Source: an uncultured Roseobacter sp. (GTDB taxonomy: Bacteria > Pseudomonadota > Alphaproteobacteria > Rhodobacterales > Rhodobacteraceae). From it: a stretch of 64,000 bases of DNA. Below, piece by piece: positions 2,003-64,000 of the stretch. The position numbers were made by a program, and so were the translations under genes. The DNA is taken from positions 620,001-684,000 of the forward strand of contig NZ_CANLYL010000001.1 of assembly GCF_947495275.1 (NCBI RefSeq). Direction: 5' to 3'. Every line of letters begins with the position of its first letter. Position 1 is the first letter of the stretch. The notes below the pieces were generated by a model. The model saw only the letters and a list, made by a program, of their open reading frames with translations, made no database searches and was not told where the DNA came from.

Positions 2003-3277
2003 ATGCGTTTTTTCTCCATCCTTGCTGCCGTTCTGGTTTCAGCAGTCTTGGCGCTGTTCATTCTGGATCGGCCACGGCTTTACGCCCTGATTGGTAAGGA
2101 ATATTCGGAAACCACCGAAGAGATGACGGCGGCTGACACGGCAGTAACCGAGCAGGCGAGTGCATCATTGGTAAAGGTCGTGGTGCAGAAATCGGTGGCG
2201 CGTCAAATCGACACCGCGGTTTCCCTGCGCGGGGAGACCAAAGCGGCGCGCGAAGTCAACGTACGGGCCGAAACCTCCGCAGTGGTTGTTTCCGAACCGT
2301 TGCGCAAAGGCGCACGTGTGGAGACGGGTCAGGCGCTCTGCCGCCTTGACGAAAGCACACGTGGCACGGCGCTTGCACAGGCGCAGGCGCAGTTGGACGA
2401 AGCGCGCGCGCGCGTACCCGAATCCGCTGCGCGGCTGGATCAGGCCCTTGCGCAGCTGGAAGAGGCCCGGATCAATCAGAACGCCTCCGCAAAACTGAGC
2501 CAGGGTGGGTTCGCCTCCACAACCCGTCTGGCCAACTCGGATGCCGCAGTGGCCACGGCCGAAGCCGCCGTGGAGAGTGCGCGGGCCGGATTGCAGGCCA
2601 CACAATCCGGCATCCAGAGCGCACAAGCCAATGTCGCAACAGCGCAAAAAGAGATTGAGCGGCTGGTGATCAAAGCGCCTTTCTCGGGGCTTCTGGAGAG
2701 CGATACGGCGGAATTGGGCACGTTGCTGCAACCCGGTGATCTCTGCGCGACCATTATCCAGCTCGACCCGATCAAGCTGGTGGCCTTCGTTCCGGAAACC
2801 GAGGTGGCGCGCGTCACCGAAGGGGCGCTGGCTTCCGCGCGGCTGGTGTCGGGCAGCGGTGCGATCAATGCCAGCGTTACCGAAAGCCGGGGCCAGGAAG
2901 TGCGCGGTCAGGTCACTTTCCTCTCCCGCTCGGCGGATGAGACCACCCGGACCTTCCGCGTGGAAATCGATATTTCCAATTCAGACAACTCGATCCGGGA
3001 CGGCCAGACGGCAGAAATCCTGATCTCCGCAGAAGGTGCGACCGCGCATCTGCTGCCTCAATCGGCACTGACGCTGAATGACGAAGGCACCCTGGGCGTG
3101 CGGACCATCGATGCCAATGCTATCGTCGCGTTTCACCCGGTGACCCTGATGCGCGACACGCTTGAAGGCATTTGGGTGACAGGGCTGGCGGATAAGGCGG
3201 ATGTCATCGTCCTGGGACAGGAATATGTCGTGGCCGGGGTGCAGGTCGCGCCGACATATAAGGAGCTCAGTCAATGA
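2003..3277 (+). CDS. RND efflux periplasmic adaptor (HlyD/AcrA family)
   Basis: The 424-aa protein has an N-terminal anchor (MRFFSILAAVLVSAVLALFI). A lipoyl-type half-motif follows (VNVRAETSAVVVSEPLRKGARVETGQALCRLDE, shown here as two runs: VNVRAETSAVVV and GARVETGQALCRLDE). Next come a long Ala/Gln/Glu coiled-coil hairpin (about residues 125-215), a second lipoyl half (IKAPFSGLLESDTAELG) and beta-barrel and membrane-proximal domains. This is the membrane-fusion protein that links the inner-membrane pump to an outer-membrane channel. The ATG at 2003 was chosen because GAGG lies 8 nt upstream and the signal anchor starts there; an upstream in-frame ATG at 1958 has no support. Its stop overlaps the pump start by ATGA, so translation is coupled. 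A TolC-like channel is encoded far away at 46.3-47.7 kb; whether they pair is unknown. Confidence 0.9.
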   Translation: MRFFSILAAVLVSAVLALFILDRPRLYALIGKEYSETTEEMTAADTAVTEQASASLVKVVVQKSVARQIDTAVSLRGETKAAREVNVRAETSAVVVSEPLRKGARVETGQALCRLDESTRGTALAQAQAQLDEARARVPESAARLDQALAQLEEARINQNASAKLSQGGFASTTRLANSDAAVATAEAAVESARAGLQATQSGIQSAQANVATAQKEIERLVIKAPFSGLLESDTAELGTLLQPGDLCATIIQLDPIKLVAFVPETEVARVTEGALASARLVSGSGAINASVTESRGQEVRGQVTFLSRSADETTRTFRVEIDISNSDNSIRDGQTAEILISAEGATAHLLPQSALTLNDEGTLGVRTIDANAIVAFHPVTLMRDTLEGIWVTGLADKADVIVLGQEYVVAGVQVAPTYKELSQ

Positions 3278-6200
3278 CCGGCATCGTCGATTGGGCCGCA
3301 AGCCGCGCGCGGATGGTCCTTGCCTTCATACTGCTGTCGCTGGTGGTTGGCGGATACGCCTATACGACCCTGCCCAAGGAGGGTGAACCGGACATCGAAA
3401 TCCCCGCACTTTTCGTGTCGGTCCCCTTCCCCGGCATTTCGGCCGCAGATAGCGAAACCCTGCTGGTCAAACCGATGGAAACCGAACTGGCCGACCTTGA
3501 CGGGTTGAAAACCATGACCGGCACCGCGGCAGAAAACTATGCGGGTGTCGCGCTGGAATTCGAGTTTGGCTGGGACAAGACGAAAATCCTGGCCGACGTG
3601 CGCGATGCCATGGGCAAGGCTGAGGCTGATTTCCCGCAAGGTGCGGAACAGTATTCGATCACGGAAATCAACTTCTCTGAATTCCCCATCATCATCGTGA
3701 ACCTGACAGGTCCGGTGCCCGAACGCACCATGATCCGGGTCGCAAAGGATTTGCAGGATGATCTGGAGGCTGTTGACGCCATTCTGGAAGCCGGGATCGC
3801 AGGCAGCCGGGATGAGATGCTCGAAGTGCTGATCGATCCGCTGAGGCTGGAGGCCTACAATGTCACCGCCAGCGATCTGATCAACACGGTCCGCAATAAC
3901 AATCAGCTGATCGCTGCCGGGGAGGTCGATACCGCGCAAGGCACTTTCGCGGTAAAAATCCCCTCTTCTTTTGATGATGCCCGCGATGTATACAACCTGC
4001 CGGTCAAAACCAATGGCGACCGCGTAGTGACCCTCGGTGATCTTGCGCAGATCAACCCGACCTTCGAGGACCGTGCTGGCACCGCGCGTTTCAACGGGGA
4101 AAAATCGCTGGCCCTTCAGGTGGTCAAGCGCAAGGGCTTCAACCTCATCGACACCGCCGAGATCGTGAAGAACATGGTCGATGACAAACGCGCCGACTGG
4201 CCGGAAGGGTTACGTGCTGCCGTCGAAATGGGCACGTCCAACGACCAGTCGCGGATCGTGAATGCGATGGTGCAGCAGCTTCTGGGCTCGGTGTTCACGG
4301 CCGTGGCCCTGGTGATGATCGTCGTCCTCGCAGCCCTGGGCATCCGCGCGGCGCTGCTGGTGGGCTTTGCCATCCCCACATCCTTTTTGCTCTGCTTCGC
4401 TTTCCTCGCCATGATGGGGATTTCCATTTCGAACATCGTGATGTTCGGGCTGATCCTCGCGGTGGGCATGCTGGTGGATGGGGCCATCGTGGTGGTGGAA
4501 TACGCAGACAAGCGCCAGCAGGAAGGCGTCGGCCCGATGCAGGCCTATGTGGATGCGGCCAAACGCATGTTCTGGCCCATCATCTCCTCCACCGCGACGA
4601 CGCTCTGCGCGTTTCTGCCGATGCTCTTCTGGCCTGGCGTGCCGGGCGAATTCATGGGCATGCTGCCCGTTACGTTGATTTTTGTTCTCTCCGCGTCTCT
4701 CGTTGTCGCCCTGATCTACCTGCCCGTTATGGGCGGGGTCACGGGCCGACTGGAGCGTTGGATGTCCGACTATATGACGGCAATTGCGGCGCTGCGCTGG
4801 TATCTGCACCTCGCGCTCTTCCCGATCGCCGCGATCATGATGGCCACCTCCGGCCTCATGGGGCCGATCTTTGGCCTGATTGGCGCCCGTTTTGCGGTAA
4901 TGAACAGCCTGCAAATCCTGTCATCGGTCATCCCGACGCTCTTGGTTGTTTTCCTGCTGATCCTCGCCGCGGCGGCCTGTCTCTTTGTTGCGCTGGGGGG
5001 ATTCCTGCTGCTGCTGGTATCAATGTTTGCCGTGCTGACCCGTATGGGCCACTATGGGCGCAAGATCGCCAGCCGCTTGTTCCGCGCCGAACCAACCGGG
5101 ATCAACGCAGGCTATCAGCGCTCTTTCTTTGGATACTTCATTCAGGGCATTGCCGGCAATCCGGTTATGCCCCTGGTCATGGCAGGCATCGTTTTCGTCT
5201 TTGTCGGCTCCGTCCTGATGTTCTTTACGAACAACAACAACGGCGTGGAGTTCTTCGTGGAATCCGAACCCGAACAGGGGATCGTCTATGTTCTCGCCCG
5301 CGGAAACCTCTCTCTGGAAGAGAAAGACAGCCTTGTGCGCAAGGCCGAAGACATCGTGCTGGCGCATCCGGGCATCAGCAATGCGTTCTCCTTCGCCGGA
5401 GAGGGCGGATTGAACACCGATACCTCTGGCGGCGCGCGCCCCAAGGATCTGATCGGACAGGTGCAGTTTGAAACGATCCCCTGGGAGGAGCGCGCCGGTC
5501 GCCCCGATCTGGATGGCAACATCGTCATCGCCGAACTGACGGAGCAGCTCTCAACGCTGCCGGGCATCAAGACCGAGGTGCTGGAAGTGGCCGATGGTCC
5601 CGCCTCGGGCAAACCTGTGCATCTGCGCCTGAAGGCAGATGACTTTGAAACGCTGATCGAAGCCGCCGCAATCGCACGAACCCAGTTCGAGCGCACCCCC
5701 GGGCTAACCCTGATCGAAGACACCCGCCCCCTGCCCGGTATCGATTGGCAAATCGACGTCGATGTGGAGAAGGCCGGGCGCTATGGCGCGGATGTGGCCA
5801 CGGTGGGGGCCATGGTGCAGCTCGTCACACGTGGTCTGATGCTGGACACCATGCGAGTGGACAGCTCGGATGAGGAAATCGAGATCCGCGTGCGTTTGCC
5901 GGAAGAGGACCGGGTGTTGTCCACTCTGGACACGCTCAAGGTCCGCACCGCAGATGGCCTCGTGCCGCTGGCGAATTTCATTACCCGCACGCCGGTGCCG
6001 AAACTGGCGGAGATCAACCGCATCGACCAGAAACGCTATTTCGACGTCAAGGCGGATGTCGCGCCCGGCATGATGAAGATCGTGGAAACGCGCCGGGTCA
6101 ACGGTGTGGAGGTGGATGAAACACTGGCCGTGCTACGCCCGGCAGGCGCCGACGCCGATCTCACAGCACCCGACCAGACCGCCTATAAGATCACCGACCG

Positions 6201-59272: not shown

Positions 59273-61099
59273 TTGCCCCTCATACACACCCGCCAAGACA
59301 TTGACGATCTTCTGGACGGCCCGACGGAAGCGGAGGAGAAACTCCTCACCGCCTGCAGGGCCGGTGACCCGTGCGATCTGGGCGGGTTGCCCCGCGCAGG
59401 TGATGCGGCGCGTGAGGTCCGTGCCGATGTGCTGCGCTACCTGATCCTCGGCGGCTGCACGGACTGCCCTGTCCAGGGCTGGGGTGTTGACCTTACCGGT
59501 GCCTATATCTCCGGCACCCTCGACCTCAGCTTTGAAAAAGCGCGCAAGGCAACGGGGCTGGAAGCGTGCAGATTTGCCGGTGACATCCTCGCCCTTCAAG
59601 CCAAGTTCGACGTACTGGCGCTGAACGGCAGCACCCTGAACGCGTTGAACGCCCAGGGGGTCGCGGTGACCGGGGGGGTCTTCCTGCGCGGCATCACCGC
59701 CACAGGCGAGGTCCGCCTCTCCAGCGCGCAGATCGGCGGGCAGTTGGATTGCGGCGGTGCGACATTCTCCGCAACGGACGCGGACGCGCTGAACGCCCAG
59801 GGGGTCGCGGTGACCGGCAACGTCTTTCTTCGCGGTATCACTGCCACAGGCGAAATCCGCATCTCCGGTGCGCAGATCGGCGGGCAGCTTGACTGCGACG
59901 GTGCGACGTTCTCCGCGACGGACGCGGACGCGCTGAACGCCCAGGGGGTCGCGGTGACCGGCAACGTCTTCCTACGCGGTATCACCGCCACCGGCAAAGT
60001 CAGCCTCTCCGGTGCGCAGATCGACGGGCAGCTTTCCTGCATCGGTGCCACCTTGTCCACAACCGACGGGGACGCGCTGAACGCCCAGGGGGTCAAAGTG
60101 ACCGAGAGTATCTTCCTGCGAGGTATCACCGCCACAGGCAAAGTCAGCCTCTCCGGCGCGCAGATCGGCGGGCAACTTGACTGCACCGGTGCGACATTCT
60201 CCGCCACGGACGGGCATGCGCTGACCCTGCAAGGGGCGCATATTCGGGACGGGTTCTTCTGGCGCGATGCCACCCTGTCCAAAGGAAGTCTGGATCTGAA
60301 TACCGCCCATGCGAGCGATCTGGTGGATGATCTGACCTCCTGGCCCGGGGAGGGCAGCCTCAATCTCGACGGGTTCACCTATGACCGCATCGGGGCGGCC
60401 CCAACCGATGCGGTTCGCCGTCTCGACTGGCTGGCCAAAGGCAGCACTTGGAATGGAGAGTTCTTTCCGCAGCCCTACACCCAGCTTGCCAAAGTGCTGC
60501 GCGAGATGGGTCATGATGCCCAAGCCCGGACCGTTCTGGCGGAGCGGGAGCGGTTGCTGTATCGTGAAAAATTCAAAACCCGCTGGCGCCTGCATAATGG
60601 CGAGGTGTCAGAAGGCATCACCGTCACCAATATCCATTACCTCACCATCCTGTGGTCGTATTTCCTGCAGGCGGTTGTGGGCTATGGTCACCGCCCGTTC
60701 CGAAGCGTGCTGGCGCTACTGGTCCTCTGGCTGAGCGCCACGACCGTTGCCCATCTCGCGTGGGGGGAAGGCTCCTTCGCACCCAATTCCGGCCCGGTCC
60801 TGCTCTCCGACGACTGGCAGCGGTTCGCGTCTGAGCCTGCCCCGGCCAACCCCGCGCTCTTGTGGTCTGAAAAGGGCGCGCAAGGACAGGATTGGGAGAG
60901 CTTCAGCCCCCATGCCTATGCCGCCGATCTGGTCATACCCATTGTCGACATCGGGCAGACCGCCGCATGGGCCCCCTCGACCACGCGCGGTTTCTGGGGC
61001 TGGCATCTGTGGTGGCTGCGCTGGGTCTTTACGCTGGCGGGCTGGGTCGTCACCGCCCTGGGGGCGGCGGCCATCACCGGGATCATCCGGCGCGATTGA
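59273..61099 (+). CDS. Membrane protein with four 48-residue repeats, probable beta-helix plus channel-like C-terminus
   Basis: The 608-aa protein starts at a TTG with CGGAG upstream. After an acidic N-domain, residues 124-315 hold four near-identical 48-residue repeats, each of the form ALNAQGVAVTGNVFLRGITA then IRISGAQIGGQLDCDGATFS. Short beta turns every 20-25 residues suggest a right-handed beta-helix, like pentapeptide or bactofilin repeats. A degenerate fifth unit follows. The C-terminus has two or three TM helices (SVLALLVLWLSATTVAHLAW and WVFTLAGWVVTALGAAAITG) flanking an extracytoplasmic loop. I recognise no characterised function. Confidence 0.75.
   Translation: MPLIHTRQDIDDLLDGPTEAEEKLLTACRAGDPCDLGGLPRAGDAAREVRADVLRYLILGGCTDCPVQGWGVDLTGAYISGTLDLSFEKARKATGLEACRFAGDILALQAKFDVLALNGSTLNALNAQGVAVTGGVFLRGITATGEVRLSSAQIGGQLDCGGATFSATDADALNAQGVAVTGNVFLRGITATGEIRISGAQIGGQLDCDGATFSATDADALNAQGVAVTGNVFLRGITATGKVSLSGAQIDGQLSCIGATLSTTDGDALNAQGVKVTESIFLRGITATGKVSLSGAQIGGQLDCTGATFSATDGHALTLQGAHIRDGFFWRDATLSKGSLDLNTAHASDLVDDLTSWPGEGSLNLDGFTYDRIGAAPTDAVRRLDWLAKGSTWNGEFFPQPYTQLAKVLREMGHDAQARTVLAERERLLYREKFKTRWRLHNGEVSEGITVTNIHYLTILWSYFLQAVVGYGHRPFRSVLALLVLWLSATTVAHLAWGEGSFAPNSGPVLLSDDWQRFASEPAPANPALLWSEKGAQGQDWESFSPHAYAADLVIPIVDIGQTAAWAPSTTRGFWGWHLWWLRWVFTLAGWVVTALGAAAITGIIRRD
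59642..60217 (+). repeat. Four tandem 144-bp in-frame repeats
   Basis: The DNA repeats with a 144-bp period (starts 59642, 59786, 59930, 60074), each beginning near CTGAACGCCCAGGGGGTC. The copies are very similar at the DNA level, so recent expansion or homogenisation is likely. They encode the beta-helix region of the 608-aa protein. Confidence 0.85.
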
Positions 61100-61229: not shown

Positions 61230-62105
61230 ATGAGCAAGACAAAGATCGCCGTGATCGGCGGATCAGGGATTTACGATATTGACGGGCTGGAAGAGGCCAG
61301 TTGGACGACGGTAGACACCCCTTGGGGCGCGCCATCGGATGCCATTCTGACCGGTGTTCTGGACGGTGTTGAGATGGCGTTTCTGCCCCGGCACGGGCGC
61401 GGCCATGTGCACAGTCCGAGCACCGTGCCCTACCTTGCCAATATCGACGCGCTGAAACGTCTGGGCTGTACGGATGTGGTGTCTGTTTCTGCCTGCGGAT
61501 CGTTCCGCGAAGAGATGGCGCCGGGGGATTTTGTGCTTGTAGATCAATTCATTGACCGCACCTTCGCGCGCGAGAAGTCGTTTTTCGGTACGGGTTGTGT
61601 CGCCCATGTCTCCGTGGCGCATCCCACCTGTCCGCGTTTGAGCGATGCCTGCGAAACCGCCGCCCGGGACGCGGGGATCACGGTGCACAGGGGGGGGACC
61701 TATCTGGCGATGGAAGGACCCCAATTTTCGACGCTGGCCGAATCCCGCATGTATCGCGAAAGCTGGGGCGCGGATGTGATCGGCATGACCAACATGCCCG
61801 AAGCCAAGCTCGCCCGTGAAGCCGAGCTGTGCTACGCCTCCGTCGCCATGATCACCGATTACGACAGCTGGCACCCCGATCATGGCGAAGTGGACGTAAC
61901 CCAGATCATCGCCACCCTCATGGGCAATGCAGACAAGGGCCGTGACCTCGTTCGGCATCTGCCGAAACTCCTGGGAAAGGACCGTGCGGCATGTGCCCAT
62001 GGCTGCGACCGCGCGCTCGAATATGCGATCCTGACCGCCCCGGAGGCGCGCGATCCAGCCGTCATGGCAAAACTGGATAGCGTGGCGGGGCGCGTCTTGC
62101 CCTGA
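61230..62105 (+). CDS. mtnP: S-methyl-5'-thioadenosine phosphorylase
   Basis: The 291-aa enzyme splits methylthioadenosine to adenine and methylthioribose 1-phosphate. It begins KIAVIGGSGIYDIDGLEEAS. Conserved segments are FLPRHGRGHVHSPSTVPY, YLAMEGPQFSTLAESRMY, WGADVIGMTNMPEAKLARE and MITDYDSWHPDHGEV. The adenine it makes is the substrate of Apt, encoded 1.6 kb downstream. Confidence 0.93.
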   Translation: MSKTKIAVIGGSGIYDIDGLEEASWTTVDTPWGAPSDAILTGVLDGVEMAFLPRHGRGHVHSPSTVPYLANIDALKRLGCTDVVSVSACGSFREEMAPGDFVLVDQFIDRTFAREKSFFGTGCVAHVSVAHPTCPRLSDACETAARDAGITVHRGGTYLAMEGPQFSTLAESRMYRESWGADVIGMTNMPEAKLAREAELCYASVAMITDYDSWHPDHGEVDVTQIIATLMGNADKGRDLVRHLPKLLGKDRAACAHGCDRALEYAILTAPEARDPAVMAKLDSVAGRVLP

Positions 62106-62108
62106 TAC

Positions 62109-62135
62109 GTTGCGCCGCGATCAATGCGGCGCAAC
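62109..62135. terminator. Perfect hairpin between mtnP and the convergent gene
   Basis: GTTGCGCCGC (62109-62118) and GCGGCGCAAC (62126-62135) form a 10-bp perfect stem with a 7-nt loop. It sits exactly between two convergent stop codons. There is no T-run, so termination may be Rho-assisted in both directions. Confidence 0.6.
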
Positions 62136-62137
62136 TG

Positions 62138-62842
62138 TCAGTAAATCTTAACGATGTTTAACTTCGCTTTGAGCCGCGTAAAAGCGTCCGCCTGCACGAT
62201 ATCATGAAGGGTCTTGGGCTGGGGACAATCTGAACAGGTCGCGGGGTCAATCATCAGGGGATTTGCAAAACGCACCCATTTCGATTGCCCATTGGTATCC
62301 TGCACCTCGTAGATCGAGTCCACGACAAAAGGTGTCAGATCCGGGTTTGTCGACGCTGCCACAACGGTTTGCAGACAAGCCGGATCCATCGGCGCATTGA
62401 CGGCCGTACGGTGCTGTTTGAAGTAGGTCCATTTCTTCTCAGGGCTTTTGACAGTGACCCAGCTTGCAATTTTCTTGGGAACATATTCCCCGACGGTTGC
62501 AAGCGTCTCGTTCAAACTGCTGCCCCAGATGTTGGACGCAGAGAGCCTGTCTTCAATAGGGGGACGATCCGCTGAGAAACTCTGTAGTGAGCAAAACTTG
62601 CTGTCTTCAAATTTCTCGTTCTTGTGGCTGTAGACAAAGACATCTCCCGGATAGGGATCCGAAATGCGGTTGGCAGGCACAATCAAACGGGCATAGCTGA
62701 TATCAGCCTCGTCAGCATCGAGCAGCACACTCTCGGTGACATTGAACGCCAACACGGTCAGAACCAACGCCGTCATCGTCCAGAACTTGTAGTCGACACT
62801 TTTGGCGGGTTTGGGTTTATCGTCAGTGTCCAGGGCGGTCAT
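62138..62842 (-). CDS. Membrane-anchored protein of unknown function, partner of the Cys-rich peptide
   Basis: The 234-aa protein starts MTALDTDDKPKPAKSVDYKF. It has one TM (FWTMTALVLTVLAFNV) and a periplasmic domain of about 190 residues with four or five Cys (FCSLQSFS, DPACLQTVVA, DPATCSDCPQPKTL). Base composition is visibly A+T-richer than neighbours. The ATG at 62842 overlaps the stop of the upstream micropeptide (ATGA), which decides the start; a GTG at 62854 is the alternative. No family recognised. Confidence 0.75.
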   Translation of the reverse strand: MTALDTDDKPKPAKSVDYKFWTMTALVLTVLAFNVTESVLLDADEADISYARLIVPANRISDPYPGDVFVYSHKNEKFEDSKFCSLQSFSADRPPIEDRLSASNIWGSSLNETLATVGEYVPKKIASWVTVKSPEKKWTYFKQHRTAVNAPMDPACLQTVVAASTNPDLTPFVVDSIYEVQDTNGQSKWVRFANPLMIDPATCSDCPQPKTLHDIVQADAFTRLKAKLNIVKIY

Positions 62843-62955
62843 TGGGGGCAACACAGGTTGCTACCGCAATTGTAGTAACCCTCAGGACAGGCAGCATAGG
62901 CGACGGCAGTTGAGACGAAAAAGGCAGCTATTGCTAGAGCAGTGATAGCACGCAT
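62839..62955 (-). CDS. Secreted Cys-rich micropeptide (38 aa)
   Basis: A 39-codon frame on the minus strand begins ATG at 62955 after GGAGAATAGTC (strong SD). It encodes a 21-residue Sec signal peptide (ITALAIAAFFVSTAVA core, AYA-type cleavage site) and a mature peptide close to ACPEGYYNCGSNLCCPQ, with four Cys in C-x6-C-x4-CC spacing. Its TGA overlaps the ATG of the membrane-anchored gene, so translation is coupled. The signal peptide, SD, Cys pattern and coupling argue that it is real. I do not recognise a characterised family. Confidence 0.75.
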   Translation of the reverse strand: MRAITALAIAAFFVSTAVAYAACPEGYYNCGSNLCCPQ

Positions 62956-63105
62956 GACTATTCTCCATTTGAATAAAATTCGGGAATATGCTGCATGATT
63001 CTACGTTTACGGGAAAATGTCTGTGAACAAAGTCACAGGCACACCGGGTTGATGTTGCCGCTGGAAACTGGAACTACTGTTGCGGCGCATGTGAAGGAGT
63101 AAACG

Positions 63106-63726
63106 GTGTCTTTCGATCTTTGGCTGACGTTCGTTGCGGCTTCCACCGCTCTCCTGCTGATCCCCGGGCCGACGGTGCTCTTGGTCTTGAGCTACGCGCT
63201 CTCGAAAGGAAAATCCGTGGCCGTGGCTTCCGCCGCAGGTGTTGCAGTCGGAGACTTGATTGCCATGACCGCGTCACTGGCGGGTTTGGGCGCGCTTGTC
63301 CTGGCCTCGGCAACCCTTTTCACCATGCTCAAATGGCTGGGAGCCATCTACCTGGTCTGGCTGGGCTTCAAACTCATCCGGTCGGCACCCCGTGAAGGCA
63401 TGGCGCCGATTGCAGAGGTAAATGCGCGTGGTGTCTTTCGCCACGCCGCTGCGGTGACTGCTCTCAACCCCAAATCCATTGCTTTTTTCATTGCGTTCGT
63501 ACCGCAGTTCTTACGCCCCGATACGCCCCTTGCCCCTCAGTTCATTCTCCTGATCGCAACTTTCGTGTCTCTCGCGGGTATCAACGCTTTGGCCTATGCC
63601 CTGCTTGCCGATCGGCTGCGCCGCGTTATCTCGAAACCAAATATTCTCACATGGATCACCCGTGCTGGCGGTGCCACCTTGATTGGTATGGGCCTCCTGA
63701 CCGCCACGCTGCGCCGCGCAACCTGA
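63106..63726 (+). CDS. LysE/RhtB-family amino-acid exporter
   Basis: The 206-aa membrane protein has about six TM helices. It shows the family N-terminal motif [20 protein letters not shown] (P-G-P), then [20 protein letters not shown] and [14 protein letters not shown]. LysE/RhtB proteins export amino acids or homoserine lactones. The start is GTG at 63106 with GAAGGAG upstream. It lies 11 nt before apt and may be cotranscribed. Confidence 0.9.
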
Positions 63727-63737
63727 AGGCAAATCGC

Positions 63738-64000
63738 ATGAAAACTGTTCAAGACTACATCCGTACGATTGTGGATTTCCCACATGAAGGCATCATGTTT
63801 CGCGACGTCACGACGCTCTTTGCGGACCCTCGCGGCTTCCGCATGGCGATTGACCAGATGCTGCATCCCTACGCCGGGCTTGAAATTGACAAAGTCGTGG
63901 GTCTGGAAGCGCGCGGCTTTATTCTTGGCGGTGCCATTGCGCACCAGCTTTCGGTCGGTTTTGTACCGATCCGCAAAAAAGGCAAGCTGCCCGGCAGAAC
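63738..64000 (+). CDS. apt: Adenine phosphoribosyltransferase (cut by window edge)
   Basis: The first 87 codons encode [39 protein letters not shown] and [33 protein letters not shown]. These are the hallmarks of Apt. It salvages adenine to AMP and would complete the MtnP route. AAGG precedes the ATG. The PRPP-binding loop lies outside the window. Confidence 0.95.

Follow-up and report, generated by a model that had tools for sequence, protein, structure and literature searches.

A short secreted cysteine-rich peptide and its membrane-anchored partner form a two-gene family in Roseobacter and other Alphaproteobacteria

Comparison of related genomes indicated that a 38-aa secreted cysteine-rich peptide and a membrane-anchored partner, encoded next to each other in a 64,000-nucleotide stretch of DNA from an uncultured Roseobacter sp. 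(the whole stretch is referred to as the window), are a genuine two-gene family whose members are kept side by side. The peptide frame was read on the minus strand (62955..62839), a strand that the initial annotation had not given, among the open reading frames of the window. The signal peptide, the Shine-Dalgarno sequence, the mature part of 17 residues and the ATGA overlap with a 234-aa gene, which had been described in the initial annotation, were all present in the sequence (Table 1). The accompanying statement that the frame is too short for most gene callers was doubtful, since its 117 nt exceed the minimum gene length of Prodigal, which is 90 nt. We tentatively favored the reading that, within a two-gene envelope module, the peptide serves the periplasmic domain of the partner as a small subunit or as a ligand.

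Table 1. Positions in the window of the peptide-partner pair, its signals and the flanking genes
Feature	Position	Strand	Basis
CDS, secreted peptide MRAITALAIAAFFVSTAVAYAACPEGYYNCGSNLCCPQ, 38 aa	62839..62955, stop included	-	ORF; 25 further related loci
Signal peptide, residues 1-21, ending in AYA before A	62893..62955	-	hydrophobic core and AXA-like end, simple rule
Mature peptide ACPEGYYNCGSNLCCPQ, 17 residues, C-x6-CG-x3-CC	62842..62892	-	Cys spacing across loci
GGAG, Shine-Dalgarno sequence of the peptide	62963..62966	-	anti-SD duplex -6.4 kcal/mol
ATGA, overlap of peptide stop and partner start	62839..62842	-	sequence reading
CDS, membrane-anchored partner, 234 aa	62138..62842	-	no Shine-Dalgarno sequence seen; anti-SD duplex 0.0 kcal/mol
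Hydrophobic anchor of the partner, about residues 23-41	62720..62776	-	hydropathy maximum 1.8, hydropathy window starting at residue 23
mtnP	61230-62105	convergent with partner	PNP_UDP_1 match
LysE-type gene, followed by a gene read as apt	63106-63726	on the other side of the pair	domain match
TGTGA-N6-TCACA palindrome, CRP-type	63022..63037	.	perfect in 7/22 loci
Promoter-like TTCACA-N18-TAGAAT	62998..63027	-	10/12 matches; overlaps the palindrome at the -35-like element

Genomes were sampled from the genus (19), family (394), order (390), class (385) and phylum (369), together with one named-genome scan, and a partner was defined as a frame of at least 180 aa whose start lay at most 110 bases from the peptide. 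From these samples 26 peptide loci were assembled, and a partner-like frame was located directly downstream in 25 of them; the loci were related and not independent, with L068/L069 and several genus members being near copies. The gap between peptide and partner ranged from -4 to +77 in 24 pairs, and the chosen start overlapped by 4 in seven of the 24; the gap of L105 was 32, or -4 with an earlier in-frame ATG. Loci L062 and L064 came from pair-bearing laboratory strains, Roseobacter insulae YSTF-M11 and Sedimentitalea nanhaiensis DSM 24252. Within the genus, which includes Roseobacter insulae (NCBI family Roseobacteraceae), peptide and partner were both found in 6 genomes and neither was found in 13, the peptide profile and the partner searches being in agreement. 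Partner identity in the six genomes was 100, 80, 62, 57, 57, and 23%. The type I partner profile (see below) found 8 of the 390 order genomes, and all 8 were also peptide matches. The initial annotation had proposed as support that other roseobacters carry the same coupled genes and keep the Cys spacing, and such pairs were indeed found there and also in other Alphaproteobacteria: four (L090, L091, L092, and L105) belonged to alphaproteobacterial families other than that of the window. The L105 pair, from a further family, mildly strengthened the case for pairing.

The family sample gave 45 genomes at E ≤0.1, of which the 7 at E ≤3e-6 were counted and 32 were left unread; six weaker loci (L015, L016, L017, L020, L022, and L024) were read and none was a pair. 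The 26 genomes from the order sample comprised 13 with the pair (11 strong ones plus L078 and L079, accepted by their neighbors), 3 with a larger Cys-rich protein and 10 with a match to the signal part only. The class sample gave 8 genomes (the own genome, 3 pairs and 4 without the motif) and the phylum sample 9 (the own genome, one pair, L105, and 7 without the motif). One locus, L014, encoded the peptide without an adjacent partner, between lysE and a gene read as LuxR-type; two genes beside this orphan copy were read as LuxR-type by eye.

The C-x6-CG-x3-CC arrangement was retained in 24 of the 26 peptide loci, though partner identity dropped to about 20%. The Cys spacing was 6 and 4 in 24 of 25 loci and 6 and 3 in L105. 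Four cysteines ending in a CC dipeptide were present in 25/25 loci, which is partly by construction as the loci were chosen with such a four-Cys pattern. A hydrophobic core and an AXA-like signal end were identified by a simple rule in all 25 loci, and L105 looked alike by eye. The mature part was 15-19 residues long in 24 of 25 loci and 23 residues in one, with a variable tail of 0 to 5 residues beyond the CC dipeptide; across the 25 loci, the net charge of the peptide was -3 to +2, and the mature peptides contained Met in no case and His in six. The duplex formed by the Shine-Dalgarno sequence of the peptide was between -5.8 and -11.2 kcal/mol in 24/24 measured pairs. The possibility that the peptide is a bacterial lipoprotein was rejected because a simple rule found no lipobox ahead of the first Cys in any of 25 peptides. 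In an AlphaFold model, which was of low depth (4 sequences, mean pLDDT 71.6, pTM 0.29), a helix covered the signal part and strands were located at residues 27-29 and 35-37. The short-spaced variant, CPAGYRVCGGACCPGR, was encoded at L105 (G1208, 1501-1626, reversed strand), which belongs to a different family of Alphaproteobacteria and has a partner of type II. Larger signal-bearing Cys-rich proteins starting with CPxGxxxCGxxxCC were observed at L015, L016, L073, and L074; those of L015 (222 aa) and L016 (194 aa) contain many more cysteines and adjoin a gene read as aspartate carbamoyltransferase, and the L016 protein had no match in Pfam. The four share with the peptide the signal and the CPxGxxxCGxxxCC beginning and are from the same family, but no pair was seen beside them.

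Substitution patterns in the frame indicated that the peptide gene is translated. Across six closely related loci with frames of the same length (the window, L040, L041, L039, L038, and L064), pS was 0.755 and pN 0.042 for the mature codons (ratio 0.055), and pS was 0.666 and pN 0.248 for the signal codons (ratio 0.37). When the distant L042 was included, the ratios became 0.114 for the mature part and 0.504 for the signal. The mature stretch read in two alternative frames gave pN/pS values of 5.1 and 0.79, and the low pN/pS in the frame of the peptide thus points to conservation of its amino acids, the mature part being conserved most. The comparison of codon substitution across relatives, which had been proposed as a check, accordingly revealed purifying selection at the amino-acid level, and a chance ORF was set aside, since both the related loci and pN/pS speak against it; the occurrence of the two genes together in 6 of 19 genus genomes likewise exceeds what chance would give.

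The partner had been described as a gene with a transmembrane anchor and cysteines, and this was borne out by a hydrophobic segment near the N-terminus and by cysteines at residues 84, 156, 203, and 206. The structure model of the window partner was poor (pLDDT 43) and contained a helix at residues 18-32. Of the 25 partners, 22 had a 19-residue stretch with a mean hydropathy of at least 1.6 close to the N-terminus; the segment was weaker in the partners of L065, L072, and L092, the last of which carried a lipobox-like LLAGC, and a second hydropathy window above 1.6 was present in the partners of L041 and L038. The partners fell into two types. All 16 type I partners, that of the window included, had at least four cysteines at similar spacing, and a few had extra cysteines in or near the anchor. 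The nine type II partners (L065, L071, L072, L078, L079, L090, L091, L092, and L105) carried two cysteines at a distance of 11 to 15 residues, and some of them may have a cleavable signal in place of the anchor. The type of peptide tracked the type of partner, as LCCP occurred in 16/16 type I peptides and in 0/9 type II peptides. Plain searching with the profile of type I left type II unjoined (best E 0.17 for type II), the profile of type II reached one type I partner (E 6e-6), and a profile-profile comparison aligned the two types over 161 columns (P 3.8e-5, probability 70.7%); a common origin of the two types is likely on these comparisons. The L105 partner matched the partners of L090 (E 4e-20) and L092 (1.3e-5), and reversed sequences gave 3.2 or worse.

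The pair occupies a steady position in the genome. In the window, the partner stop was 32 bases from the stop of the convergent mtnP. The slot between mtnP and lysE-apt held 20 of the 21 pairs of the window's family, with L072 as the exception; in the loci read, mtnP adjoined 18 pairs, and L066 and L070 lay beside lysE and apt. Where the genus lacked the pair (13 genomes), the distance between the mtnP and lysE matches was 17-39 bases in 5 genomes, 392-411 in 2 and 690-763 in 6. In the six with the widest spacing (L046, L048, L049, L051, L054, and L057), the slot was occupied by a secreted protein some 225 aa long; one of these proteins scored as DUF2927 with 26.5 bits (cut-off 26.2), and the others were similar by eye. 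Distances between partners correlated with those between mature peptides (0.71, 18 loci), also with mtnP distances held constant (0.68, p 0.0002) and in type I alone (0.55, p 0.0006, 14 loci). These correlations indicated that peptide and partner travel together, apart from mtnP. The signal peptide, which would be cleaved off, correlated with the partner at 0.82, above the mature part, and the correlations therefore argue for co-inheritance, not for contact. Outside the slot, no gene was common to the four loci read by eye (L124-L127). At L124 (G1021, 3102-4643 and 4796-5775), the L090 pair was divergent from a caspase-domain gene (PF00656, E 1.2e-42) about 150 bases away, and at L127 (G418, 4408-5925) caspase-like motifs were seen by eye and Pfam gave none, with the L072 pair coming after. 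In the window, a 608-aa pentapeptide-repeat protein (PF13576) at 59273-61099 on the plus strand adjoins mtnP.

Across the libraries searched, the pair appears to fit no protein family found. Pfam showed nothing at the cut-off for the window pair, 10 further partners, 20 peptides and others. No convincing match was found in NCBIfam for the window pair and 6 partners, or in PHROGs for the window pair and 3 partners, and sequence searches of the PDB gave E values of 0.47 or worse. The AgrD family of NCBIfam was rejected; its match reached 14.5 bits versus a cut-off of 19 and covered residues 3-24, the signal region. CC domains come from nematode proteins, contain two disulfides and feature a four-Cys module ending in a CC dipeptide. 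The peptide resembles the CC domain PF04942 in being a short Cys module with such an end, and 8 of 20 homologues matched this profile at E ≤10 (best E 0.0013). The cut-off is 20.6 bits, the four homologue scores shown were 12.7-16.5, with the score of the E 0.0013 member absent, and the window peptide itself had no match to PF04942. PADLOC gave none for the window pair and 6 of 7 other partners, the seventh (L090) being a weak DpdG match (E 0.033). No match above chance came from collections of plasmids, phages and viral sequences; tblastn with the peptide returned two plasmid records (E 2 and 9) and one phage record (E 9). Phage or plasmid cargo was set aside given tblastn E values of at least 2 and otherwise no matches. 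No description of the pair was found in the literature searched, peptide strings included, with subscription papers and preprints lying outside this search.

The initial annotation had proposed that peptide and partner act together; the co-occurrence supports joint action, whereas the toxin, metal-binding and signaling roles suggested for it were not established. A role as subunit or ligand was favored because the neighborhood is steady, the Cys frame is fixed, the peptide is more constrained than its partner, the partner would face the periplasm and the peptide comes first. The peptide would be exported by Sec and cut by signal peptidase I, and two disulfides would close it into a periplasmic hairpin of 16-17 residues. 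There it would serve the periplasmic domain of the partner, either as small subunit or as fixed ligand; this domain would be attached to the inner membrane and carries conserved cysteines of its own. With one mRNA and the peptide first, the peptide would be supplied at or above the level of the partner, and the window junction, which has no Shine-Dalgarno sequence for the partner, fits translational coupling. L014, a peptide without an adjacent partner, counts against this role, as do the three weak hydrophobic segments (L065, L072, and L092) and the possibly cleavable signals of some type II partners. A broader joint claim, held more tentatively still, is that the pair is an undescribed alphaproteobacterial envelope module in which a two-disulfide peptide, for the most part of 15-19 residues and among the smallest gene-encoded ones of Gram-negative bacteria, may be obligatory as subunit or ligand for a partner that diverges fast and faces the periplasm, with allelic cassettes exchanged between housekeeping genes and a CRP-type switch in Roseobacter. 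The pair is a small case of a hidden microprotein: about 16 residues are under strong selection, the partner is steady, there is a candidate promoter, and the natural presence and absence in strains of one genus makes it testable. If the peptide is a subunit or ligand, it would represent an additional peptide fold as well as an envelope module of common marine bacteria, and would show what frames of such size can hide.

Other functions were weighed against the same observations. It is unlikely that the released peptide harms or marks non-kin neighbors while the partner provides immunity to the producer. The pair is present or absent in one slot (6 of 19 genus genomes have it), the slot of six genomes holds different cargo, scored in one as DUF2927, and partner alleles in one genus go down to 23% identity; an antagonistic cassette would likewise be compatible with divergent alleles in such a slot. 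However, a toxin is expected to vary more, and here the peptide was the conserved member. The role as subunit or ligand fits better than bacteriocin and immunity because the peptide is near-neutral and better conserved than its partner, because L014 has no partner among the adjacent genes, which were those examined, where immunity is expected at every copy, and because plasmids, phages and viral contigs gave no matches above chance; the lack of a PADLOC match for the window pair also speaks against antagonism. A diffusible pheromone read by the partner as receptor was rated lower, as improbable. The peptide is secreted, cysteine-rich and paired with a periplasm-facing protein, and the orphan L014 lies beside the two LuxR-type genes, but no signaling domain was found in the partner in the libraries searched, and the peptide varied little where partners differed strongly. 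Very unlikely, and the least probable of all, was a thiol or metal peptide whose four cysteines, reduced or cycling, would bind Cu or Zn while the partner docks. The four cysteines found in every mature peptide, a count owed partly to how the loci were chosen, and a Cys-bearing partner would suit this function, whereas the absence of Met from 25 mature peptides, the presence of His in only six and the absence by eye of metal genes near the pairs, among the matches listed, argue against it, as does the oxidizing periplasm, which favors disulfides.

The peptide could also be a nascent-chain sensor, an exported leader stalling or coupling ribosomes to control translation of the partner; we considered this less likely than antagonism and less unlikely than a pheromone. 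The upstream frame carries a signal peptide and a Cys motif, and 9 of 24 pairs, the window among them, had no Shine-Dalgarno sequence for the partner (-1.9 kcal/mol or weaker). CutF of Rhodobacter capsulatus is reported to work in this way (PMC9973294), and CruR has 145 aa with CXXC and RAPP (PMC9426467). CutF and CruR (DUF2946) resemble the peptide as exported Cys-bearing frames closely ahead of a regulated gene, also in Rhodobacter; by contrast, the peptide here has 38 aa, C-x6-CG-x3-CC, no RAPP and, in the eight junctions folded, no common hairpin, and the DUF2946 profile was not among the Pfam matches of the window peptide or 20 homologues. The arrest peptides SecM and ApdP, the latter occurring in Rhodobacterales (PMC10987492), are similar in being short signal-bearing frames upstream of a membrane-protein gene, but the peptide has no RAPP-like end and the downstream gene was not secA, secDF, or yidC in the sequence libraries. 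A leader would need a stall motif, yet the tail past CC is 0 to 5 residues without a RAPP-like end; it would also need a shielded start, and folding of eight junctions (z -1.96 to +0.73) revealed no hairpin shared among them. In addition, 11 of 24 partners had their own Shine-Dalgarno sequence (-4.5 kcal/mol or better), the gaps extended to +77, and none of the libraries searched assigned the partner to metal or Sec genes.

The control region contained a candidate CRP-type site. The palindrome was perfect in six genus loci and L065 and imperfect or absent in 15 of 22 loci, and the perfect copies were located 74-78 bases ahead of the peptide start. The predicted site lies over the -35-like element, an arrangement resembling that of E. 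coli class II CRP promoters, whose site overlaps the -35 element. The promoter-like sequence was weak on its own, with one found compared with a shuffle mean of 0.6. The own genome (5.08 Mb) had 9 perfect palindromes and none of the control pattern, with about 3 expected from a rough estimate of base composition; several of the perfect sites were inside frames, and no clear regulon was defined. With one mismatch allowed, the window contained 1 match versus 1.43 expected, and since such matches were not above expectation, it is conservation that makes the case for the site. Rfam identified no known RNA element in 61900-63800. Elsewhere in the own genome, two perfect palindromes about 390 bases apart (C3:490451 and 490842; L089, L116, and L117) were located in a gap of about 700 bases between a cytochrome c1-like gene and a 224-aa gene resembling a CRP-family regulator (C3:490867-491541), and this gap contained small frames only, perhaps a small RNA.
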